Assembly: GCA_020849655.1 (NCBI GenBank)
Contig: JADLFU010000257.1
Location: 1-38,590 of the forward strand
Source of the DNA: Polyangiaceae bacterium
GTDB lineage: Bacteria > Myxococcota_A > Polyangia > Polyangiales > Polyangiaceae
DNA: 38,590 bases
Direction: 5' to 3'
In this document: in pieces, positions 23,345 to 25,751 of the stretch
Position numbering within the stretch: the first letter of the stretch is position 1
Layout of the letters: each line of letters begins with the position of its first letter
Notes under the pieces: generated by a model
The model's input: the letters and a program-made list of their open reading frames with translations, nothing else
The model's database searches: none
Told to the model about the DNA's origin: nothing
Position numbers and translations under genes: made by a program

Positions 23345-23644
23345 TCAGGGCTTCGCGATCAGCAGCCGATCGAGGATGGCCTTCGACGCGGAGCCGACCT
23401 CGCGGAACACCACGCCCATCCCGCCCTCCTCGACGCGCACGACCTCGCCCTCTCCCTCGATGGTCTCGATGTCGTCCATGATGACGGTGAACATCAGCCG
23501 CACCTTCGTGCCGATCGGCAGCGGGGACTTCGACCGGATGAACGCGCCGGTGCGCGAGATGTTGGTGACGTACTCCTCCAGGAAGGCGTCGAACGAGGCG
23601 AATTCCTTGTTGATCGTGACGCGCTCGTCCTTGCGATCGGTCAT
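23345..23644 (-). CDS. PilZ-domain protein
   Basis: 99 residues, a single PilZ domain. The c-di-GMP motif is present: RxxxR in RKDER (Arg4-Arg8) and NISRTGAFI in the (D/N)xSxxG position. The later strand LPIGTKVRLMF and GMGVVFREV fit the barrel. It would bind c-di-GMP and pass the signal to a partner. The gene begins 4 bp after the rng stop, so it belongs to the rng operon, where any link between c-di-GMP and RNA decay is unproven. Confidence 0.88.
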   Translation of the reverse strand: MTDRKDERVTINKEFASFDAFLEEYVTNISRTGAFIRSKSPLPIGTKVRLMFTVIMDDIETIEGEGEVVRVEEGGMGVVFREVGSASKAILDRLLIAKP

Positions 23645-23648
23645 CGGC

Positions 23649-25751
23649 TCACTTCCCCTGGAGGTCGAATTTCTCTACGTGGTAGCCCTTCTGCGGGACG
23701 AGATCGATGCGGCGCTCGGTGCGACGCTCCGCCTCCTTCAGCGACTCGCGCTCCTCGATCTTCAGGTGCGCGCAGACGTCGGGGTGCGCGTTGACGAGGA
23801 TGGTGTACCCCGGCAGCGACGCGCGCTCGCGGCGGATGGCGCGGAGGATCTCGTACGACACCGTCTGCTTGCTCATCACGCGGCCCGCGCCCTCGCAGTA
23901 CGGGCAGGGCTCGTGCGTGGCGCGGCCGAGGCTCTCGCGGGTGCGCTTGCGGGTCATCTCGATGAGGCCGAGCTCGCTGATGCGGTTCAGCGAGGTCTTC
24001 GCCTTGTCCTTCAGCAGCAGCTCCTCGAGGCGCCGGCGCACCTGCTCGCGCGAGCTCGCGCGCTCCATGTCGATGAGGTCGAGCACGATGAGCCCGCCGA
24101 GGTTGCGGAACCTGAGCTGGTACGCGATCTCCTCGACCGCCTCGAGGTTGGTCTTGAGGATGGTCTCCTCGTGGTCCTTCGAGCCCTTGCCGACGAAGCG
24201 GCCGGTGTTCACGTCGATGGCCGTCAGCGCCTCGGCCTCGTCGATGATGAGGTACCCGCCGGACTGGAGCGGCACCTTGCGCGCCAGGGCGCGCGTGATC
24301 TCCTCCTCGAGGCCGTAGCCGTCGAAGATGGGCTCGTCGCCCGCGTACAGCTCGATGTCCTTCACGCGCTCCGGCATGAACATCTCGACGAAGCGGACGA
24401 GGCGGTCGTACTGGTGCCGATCGTCGATGACGATCTTCTCGACGTCGTCGCCGAACATGTCGCGCGCGACCTTGAGCACGATGTCGAGCTCCTCGTAGAG
24501 GTTGGTCGGCGCCTTCGCGCCCTCCTTCTTCTTCGCGATCTCGCCCCAGAGCCGCACGAGGTAGCCGACGTCGGCCTTCAGCTGCTTCTTCGTGAGGCCC
24601 TCGGCGAGCGTGCGGATGATGATGCCGCCGGTGGGCGGGCGCATCCCCTCGATGGCCTCGCGCAGGCGCTGGCGCTCCTTGTCGTTGCCGATGCGCTTCG
24701 AGACGCCGACGTAGTCGACCGTCGGCATGTAGACGACGTACCGCCCGGGCAGCGAGACGTGGCTGGTGACGCGCGCGCCCTTGCTGCCGATGGGCTCCTT
24801 CGAGATCTGGACGAGCACCTCCTGTCCCTCGCGGACGACGTCGCGGATGGGGGTGTTCTTGTCGATGCGGGGCGCGCCCTTCTTGCGGTCGTCGCGCTTC
24901 GGCTGCGGCTGGGCCTCCGCGCGGCGGGCCTCTGGCTCGGACGCGCCTCCGCCACCTCCGCCTCCCCCCCCACCACCTCGACGGCGACGGCGACGACGAC
25001 GGGGCGATCCTCCGCGCTCCTCGGCCGCCGCCTCGCCCGGCGCGCCCTCGGCCGCCGCGGGCCCGTCGGCGCCGTCAGCGACGTCCTCGTCGTCGTCTCC
25101 GTCCGCGTCGTCGCCCACGACCTCCTCCGCGGCCGCGGGCGCGTCGTCGGTCACCGCCTCCTCGGCGGCCGCGGGCGCGTCGGCGCCCCCCATGGGCGCG
25201 GCCTCGGCGACGGGCGCCTCGGCCTCGGGCTCCTCGTCGGAGACGTCGGTCGACGGGACCTCCGGCGGGATCGCGCCGGTGTCGACCGCCGGGGGAGGCT
25301 CGATCGCGGTGGCCTCGGCGGGCGCGGGCGCCTCCGGGGCGACCGCCTCGACCACGGCGCGCGGCTGGGCCTCGCGGGCGGCCTTCGGCGGTGGCTGGGA
25401 GCGACGCCCGCGACCTCGCGACGGGCTCGGCGCGTCGGACGCGGCGGCGTCCTCGGGCGGGGTGTCGTCCTCGCCGCGGTCGTTCTTCTTCTTGCCCGAG
25501 AGGTACGCGTCGAGATCGTCGGGGCGGATGAGGTCCTCGACGTGGAGGAAGGCGGCCTTGTCGAGGCCGACGTCGATGAACGCGGCCTGCATCCCCGGCA
25601 GCACGCGGGTCACGCGGCCGAGCACGACGTTGCCGAGGCACTTCTCGCGGCTCTGCCGCTCCATGTGGAGTTCGGCGATGATGCCGTCCTCGATGAGCGC
25701 GACGCGCGTCTCGCCGATTTCGCAATTGATGACGATGAGGTTCTTGGCCAT
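23649..25751 (-). CDS. rng: RNase E/G-family ribonuclease with a large insertion in the S1 domain
   Basis: 700 residues. The core is RNase E/G: KNLIVINCEIGETRVALIED, the S1 part GRVTRVLPGMQAAFIDVGLD, then IRDVVREGQEVLVQISKEP, and the DNase-I-like domain with catalytic Asp513 (AIDVNTGRF) and Asp558 (LIVLDLIDMER). The zinc link is Cys616 and Cys619 in EPCPYCEG. Between residues about 86 and 296, inside the S1 barrel, lies a low-complexity insertion: acidic and Ala/Pro-rich, ending with eight Arg and eleven Gly. The C-terminal scaffold of RNase E is absent, so by core length it is closer to RNase G. It should cut single-stranded AU-rich RNA and help rRNA maturation. Confidence 0.92.
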   Translation of the reverse strand: MAKNLIVINCEIGETRVALIEDGIIAELHMERQSREKCLGNVVLGRVTRVLPGMQAAFIDVGLDKAAFLHVEDLIRPDDLDAYLSGKKKNDRGEDDTPPEDAAASDAPSPSRGRGRRSQPPPKAAREAQPRAVVEAVAPEAPAPAEATAIEPPPAVDTGAIPPEVPSTDVSDEEPEAEAPVAEAAPMGGADAPAAAEEAVTDDAPAAAEEVVGDDADGDDDEDVADGADGPAAAEGAPGEAAAEERGGSPRRRRRRRRGGGGGGGGGGGASEPEARRAEAQPQPKRDDRKKGAPRIDKNTPIRDVVREGQEVLVQISKEPIGSKGARVTSHVSLPGRYVVYMPTVDYVGVSKRIGNDKERQRLREAIEGMRPPTGGIIIRTLAEGLTKKQLKADVGYLVRLWGEIAKKKEGAKAPTNLYEELDIVLKVARDMFGDDVEKIVIDDRHQYDRLVRFVEMFMPERVKDIELYAGDEPIFDGYGLEEEITRALARKVPLQSGGYLIIDEAEALTAIDVNTGRFVGKGSKDHEETILKTNLEAVEEIAYQLRFRNLGGLIVLDLIDMERASSREQVRRRLEELLLKDKAKTSLNRISELGLIEMTRKRTRESLGRATHEPCPYCEGAGRVMSKQTVSYEILRAIRRERASLPGYTILVNAHPDVCAHLKIEERESLKEAERRTERRIDLVPQKGYHVEKFDLQGK

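Follow-up and report, generated by a model that had tools for sequence, protein, structure and literature searches.

A long disordered insert within the S1 domain of RNase E/G is a trait of Polyangiaceae and their sister family

RNase E scaffolds are usually thought of as C-terminal tails. Polyangiaceae are a family of soil and water bacteria, and the 38,590-nt stretch of their DNA analyzed here (contig JADLFU010000257.1, hereafter the window) codes for an RNase E/G that carries a long disordered segment inside its S1 domain, which raises the question of whether this segment is genuine, how far it extends among relatives and what it could do for an enzyme that has no such tail. The gene (23649..25751, minus strand, as are all features below) codes in a single open frame for a protein of 700 aa, the sole PF10150 member found in its genome. 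The protein scores above the cut-offs of the Rne/Rng family TIGR00757 (481.7 bits, cut-off 325.95) and of PF10150 (335.2, cut-off 25.5), and below the curated cut-off of the RNase G equivalog PRK11712 (507.1 bits, cut-off 594) and that of RNase E PRK10811 (296 bits, cut-off 908), with a C-terminal tail of 0 residues. The RNase_E_G catalytic region (PF10150, residues 333-604, 23940..24755) includes D513 and D558, which we take to be the metal-binding aspartates. Only 3 residues follow the RNase_E_G_Thio C-terminal domain (PF20833, residues 615-697, 23661..23909), in agreement with the initial annotation, which had noted that the C-terminal scaffold is missing. Positions F58, F68, K324, R380, T381, D513, N515, D558, C616 and C619 are invariant among 70 aligned proteins; judging from the roles of their E. 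coli counterparts, we take them to be RNA- or metal-contact positions, C616 and C619 being presumably the zinc-link residues of the Rne/Rng family. Since the residues contacting RNA and metal in E. coli are invariant in 70/70 proteins, the enzyme should be catalytically active.

The first half of the S1 barrel (residues 36-84, 25500..25646) was delimited from predicted secondary structure, and the second half (residues 300-340, 24732..24854) from PDB alignment, predicted structure and structural comparison. Between them lie about 215 residues (approximately residues 85-299, 24855..25499), delimited from the sequence, linker measurement, alignment with a relative and AlphaFold2, in nearly the place where an insertion of about 210 disordered residues had been reported (24860-25500). 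In the AlphaFold2 model, built on a 70-sequence alignment, strands 42-51, 56-60 and 67-70 precede the insert and strands 311-318 and 327-329 follow it, which places it in the β3-β4 loop of S1, between strands 67-70 and 311-318. A short helix (77-84) closes the first S1 half, and its motif VEDLIRPDD[FL]xxYL undergoes only small changes across the inserted clade. Most of the core is modeled at pLDDT above 90 with the barrel folded on both sides of the insert, whereas the insert itself is left unfolded (block means of about 36-52 over residues 91-290), which bears out the disorder initially assumed. The possibility that the insert is a folded extra domain was rejected on the same grounds, the model containing no helix or strand within it. 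Structural comparison matched the model to E. coli RNase E (2bx2_L; Z 27.4, 390 residues, 4.6 Å), confirming an RNase E fold, and to the isolated E. coli S1 domain (1smx_A; Z 8.7, 84 residues, 3.4 Å) over model residues 40-339, spanning the insert.

The insert begins with an acidic, Ala- and Pro-rich part (Ala, Asp, Glu, Pro), continues with an Arg/Gly-rich part and finishes with a mixed basic stretch. The Arg/Gly-rich part contains eight consecutive Arg (R8, residues 251-258, 24978..25001) and eleven consecutive Gly (G11, residues 259-269, 24945..24977). Both runs are as first described, but they do not form the very end of the insert: about 30 more residues, mostly polar and rich in Lys and Arg, follow G11 before S1 restarts around residue 300.

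Low-complexity DNA with a GC content above 80%, as found here, is where an assembly error or a frameshift could create a spurious insert, and a relative (L176) does have a frameshift inside its Arg/Gly region. We nevertheless regard such an artefact as vanishingly improbable. The insert is read in a single open frame, and a second species of the same genus (L027 and L031, identical proteins) can be aligned along its whole length, with R8 and G11 both retained through synonymous codon changes. Sorangium cellulosum So0157-2 (L033), whose genome is complete, and Polyangium fumosum (L036) share this architecture. Because a second species of the genus and 40 of 41 family genomes have a long linker, misassembly or a chance frame was ruled out, and the insert is not absent from close relatives, either of which would have undermined the initial annotation. 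For the window protein and this same-genus relative, a single species pair, dN/dS was 0.256 over 184 aligned insert codons, 0.066 over 405 core codons and 0.048 over the first 80, indicating that the insert is under purifying selection though evolving faster than the core. A single open frame, recurrence throughout the family and conservation against the same-genus relative thus confirm that the insert is a real, conserved feature, beyond chance. The L176 frameshift itself probably reflects erroneous sequencing of low-complexity DNA.

To describe its distribution, we took as the linker the span between two alignment anchors of our own choice, the AAFLH and REGQ motifs, and examined 245 loci. 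Nine of them (L010, L021, L037, L038, L039, L131, L140, L145 and L176) yielded no linker length and are excluded from the counts; most begin at a contig end, and L176 is frameshifted. The sampled regions were hand-chosen, with a bias toward family f1, taken as Polyangiaceae, and toward long open frames; some 16 other f1 genomes that also gave a match lie outside the sample (f1, f6 and f8 are the database's own labels). The window linker spans 236 residues, compared with about 20-60 in the usual RNase E/G. Of the 41 Polyangiaceae genomes in which it was measured, 40 carry a linker of 116-448 residues; the exception, G016, has 64 and can thus do without a long arm. Named relatives with long linkers include S. 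cellulosum So0157-2 (468), P. fumosum (285) and a Byssovorax (374).

We inferred a maximum-likelihood tree by a quick search from 223 joined core sequences of Myxococcota and neighbours, identical proteins such as L027 and L031 being collapsed. Polyangiaceae and a sister family (f8) form a 49-tip clade (SH-aLRT 97) in which 48 members have a linker of at least 116 residues (116-468), and the linkers of its 44-tip main clade measure 141-468. Elsewhere, 31 other Polyangiales, including Sandaracinaceae, form a clade with linkers of 36-70, one further Myxococcota family has graded linkers of 67-191, and the remaining Myxococcota measured have linkers of about 25-77. A linker of at least 100 residues requires approximately five changes on this tree, one Nitrospirota protein (129) included. 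The long insert characterizes Polyangiaceae and their sister family and is partly paralleled in another family. Alignment with other Myxococcota and other phyla, which the initial annotation had called for, upholds its conservation within Polyangiaceae; it is not typical of Myxococcota, and its site was already known (see below). Outside Myxococcota, isolated linker expansions in a Nitrospirota protein (L076, 129 residues) and a Desulfamplus protein (L094, 88 residues) are acidic and have no Arg/Gly tracts. In five other loci (L110, L129, L220, L222 and L223), the open frame of RNase E/G would extend the protein at its N-terminus by 234-478 residues relative to the usual start.

Despite its variable length, the insert has a recurrent composition. 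In 48/49 clade members, the 40-residue segment of lowest net charge lies ahead of the one of highest net charge, the shortest insert being too short to score, and the acid-to-base order exceeds that of residue shuffles at p<0.01 in 39/49. A 40-residue stretch with a net charge of −8 or lower occurs in 48/49. By a cruder split of 58 long linkers, near-copies and identical proteins included, the first 60% is net negative in 58/58 and the last 40% net positive in 41/58. In the window's own insert, the order was not significant against residue shuffles (p=0.24), because a basic patch lies near the start of the insert. Short motifs are conserved within sub-lineages. PGFT, within [LM]PGFT[IVM][ST][DE], is present in 11/11 aligned members of one sub-lineage, surrounded by sequence that cannot be aligned; it sits at the acid/basic junction and is duplicated in tandem in L170. 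The motifs LPTAL[DE] and RVRRS[GR] mark the Polyangium/Sorangium sub-lineage. The window protein contains neither PGFT nor LPTAL[DE]/RVRRS[GR]. AlphaFold2 modeling of a PGFT-bearing relative, from an alignment of 11 sequences only, gave a mean pLDDT of 42.8, too low to place the motif.

C-terminal tails of 60-285 residues occur in 25 of the 223 tree proteins (e.g. L208, L213, L214, L221, L224 and L225), and those of L213, L214 and L225 contain Arg/Gly tracts of their own. None of the 223 proteins, from Myxococcota and neighbours, combines a linker of at least 100 residues with a tail of at least 60. We do not offer this exclusivity as a rule, since the long-linker state changes only about five times on the tree and since Caulobacter RNase E, according to the available text of PMC4245959, carries both an S1 insert and a C-terminal tail; the Caulobacter-like proteins measured here likewise have sequence beyond the core. 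Near the tail end of L233, L234, L235, L238 and L239, we also observed an ESxIL-like motif, a possible partner-binding site.

The genomic setting bears on the role of the enzyme. The source genome (6.56 Mb, 97% complete) contains one PF10150 protein, a PNPase (1009 bits) and an RNase J-type protein (404 bits, cut-off 400), and no match to RNase Y was found in it, so the window RNase E/G is probably the main decay-initiating endonuclease of its organism. PNPase and RNase J, the two other enzymes examined, align with their family models over the full length, with no large insertion. Downstream, and no part of the insert, is the gene for a small PilZ-domain protein (23345..23644), separated from the RNase E/G stop codon by 4 bases. 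Among loci with at least 500 bases of downstream sequence, 110/214 have a same-strand PilZ relative no more than 500 bases downstream of the RNase gene: 56/63 with a linker of at least 100 residues and 54/151 with a shorter one, a group that includes other phyla. PilZ thus also accompanies RNases without the insert, and its adjacency is not specific to the arm. The RxxxR and [DN]xSxxG motifs of PilZ domains bind c-di-GMP; both are present in 107 of 123 PilZ matches, and the neighbouring PilZ protein of the window retains a c-di-GMP-type motif. This adjacency, widespread in Myxococcota, suggests that c-di-GMP may be linked to RNA decay there. A literature search combining PilZ, RNase E, c-di-GMP and degradosome returned no paper on the pairing, judging by titles and the beginnings of abstracts.

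What could the insert do? We favour, at roughly even chances, the idea that it is an internal arm tethering RNA and partners and thereby standing in for the missing tail. In Polyangiaceae, the S1 β3-β4 loop has expanded by roughly 100-430 residues to form a disordered arm, whose Arg/Gly block would capture RNA beside the S1/5′-sensor entry, whose charge blocks could allow multivalent contacts with RNA and with other copies of the arm, perhaps to the point of forming condensates, and whose short sub-lineage-conserved motifs might recruit partners such as an exonuclease or a helicase. At S1, the arm would take the part played by the disordered tail of the Escherichia coli and Caulobacter enzymes. 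This idea is consistent with the lineage-wide presence of the insert, the invariant RNA and metal positions, the acid-before-basic order, the insert dN/dS of 0.256, the PGFT, LPTAL[DE] and RVRRS motifs, and a genome with PNPase and RNase J and no RNase Y match. Two precedents can be added from the available text of published studies: the Caulobacter helicase RhlB binds a fragment of RNase E (1-274) that contains the S1 insert (PMC4245959), and charge-patterned RNase E tails drive condensates in Caulobacter and Sinorhizobium (PMC12691583). Counted against the idea are the window insert itself, with its p=0.24 and neither PGFT nor LPTAL, and the 64-residue linker of G016, while its tail-replacing part is further weakened by the coexistence of arm and tail in Caulobacter and by the sequence after the core of Caulobacter-like proteins. 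Taken more loosely, as the RNA- or partner-binding platform or condensate driver first proposed, the function is a reasonable one to suggest from the charge blocks, the Arg/Gly tract and the short conserved motifs.

Tolerated growth of low-complexity sequence is a somewhat unlikely alternative, whereby slippage and duplication would extend an exposed loop in high-GC genomes under no constraint other than solubility and disorder. Linkers ranging from 64 to 468 residues, mostly unalignable, the repeats such as DSDED and REGREA that are obvious in some members, and the faster evolution of the insert relative to the core are what such growth would leave, yet R8 and G11 are retained with different synonymous codons, the acid-then-basic order recurs, PGFT is invariant in its sub-lineage and tandemly repeated in L170, and neither PNPase nor RNase J, encoded in the same genome, has a large insertion. 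An electrostatic gate, in which the acidic part mimics RNA in the S1/5′-sensor groove until displaced by substrate or a partner and mainly restrains activity, strikes us as distinctly unlikely. It would fit the stretch of net charge −8 or lower in 48/49 clade members and the Caulobacter insert, a helix of which protrudes into the predicted RNA site with acidic side chains that could mimic RNA, as the available text of PMC4245959 describes. However, no helix is predicted within the window's insert, the Arg/Gly block points to RNA binding rather than exclusion, and deletion of the insert of Arabidopsis RNase E, as cited in the same text, lowers activity instead of raising it. The tethering arm can be extended to the bolder proposal that Polyangiaceae moved a degradosome or condensate scaffold from the tail into the S1 loop, one arm capturing RNA at the catalytic entrance and recruiting partners via lineage-specific motifs, the neighbouring PilZ protein maybe among them; we consider this full scenario doubtful.

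S1 inserts have been described before, so the Polyangiaceae architecture is not without precedent. According to the available text of PMC4245959 (2014), RNase E of alpha-proteobacteria and plants carries S1-domain insertions of about 50-150 residues that are charged and predicted to be disordered. The Polyangiaceae arm shares with those of Caulobacter and plants the same S1 loop, charge, predicted disorder and variable length; window residues 1-77 and 288-423 align to residues 21-96 and 153-290 of the Caulobacter crescentus structure 4OXP. For comparison, we sampled 299 Pseudomonadota genomes and examined 50 loci, the best 30 matches plus 20 chosen. By their linker ends, 9/50 are Caulobacter-like, with linkers of 83-252 residues, and the other 41 have linkers of 19-51; the alpha-proteobacterial label of the nine is inferred, one of them having matched 4OXP in the PDB (E 5e-15). 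As the Caulobacter-like linkers reach 252 residues, the published range of about 50-150 is too narrow, and length is a weak criterion, which also applies to the window linker of 236 residues, outside that range. The Polyangiaceae arm is nonetheless longer in most cases (141-468 in the 44-tip clade), has Arg/Gly tracts and comes without a C-terminal scaffold, and its acid-then-basic order reaches p<0.01 in 39/49 clade members versus 1/9 Caulobacter-like proteins. Our literature search on myxobacteria found no paper describing an RNase E/G S1 insert. The location of the insert is thus known, while its length, its mostly charge-ordered acid-then-Arg/Gly blocks, its lineage motifs and the absence of a C-terminal tail set the Polyangiaceae version apart. 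By sequence comparison, disordered arms appear to have expanded repeatedly from the S1 loop, in lineages as distant as alpha-proteobacteria, plants and Polyangiaceae.

The folded part of the window protein resembles RNase G in size, domain set and protein end, but the protein differs from RNase G in its score below the equivalog cut-off (507 against 594 bits), in its insert and in that no second E/G enzyme was found in its genome. With the C-terminal RNase E scaffolds of the E. coli degradosome and of Caulobacter and Sinorhizobium BR-bodies, the arm shares, by description, disorder, alternating charge, Arg-rich segments of RNA-binding type and short conserved motifs; in Pseudomonas, Arg-rich tail motifs of RNase E have been studied as RNA-binding elements, as the available text of PMC11964227 reports. 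The position differs, the arm lying within S1 and the scaffold at the C-terminus, so that a tail-less family with a larger S1 arm offers a natural test of how the position of a scaffold matters for RNA capture, partner recruitment and condensates.
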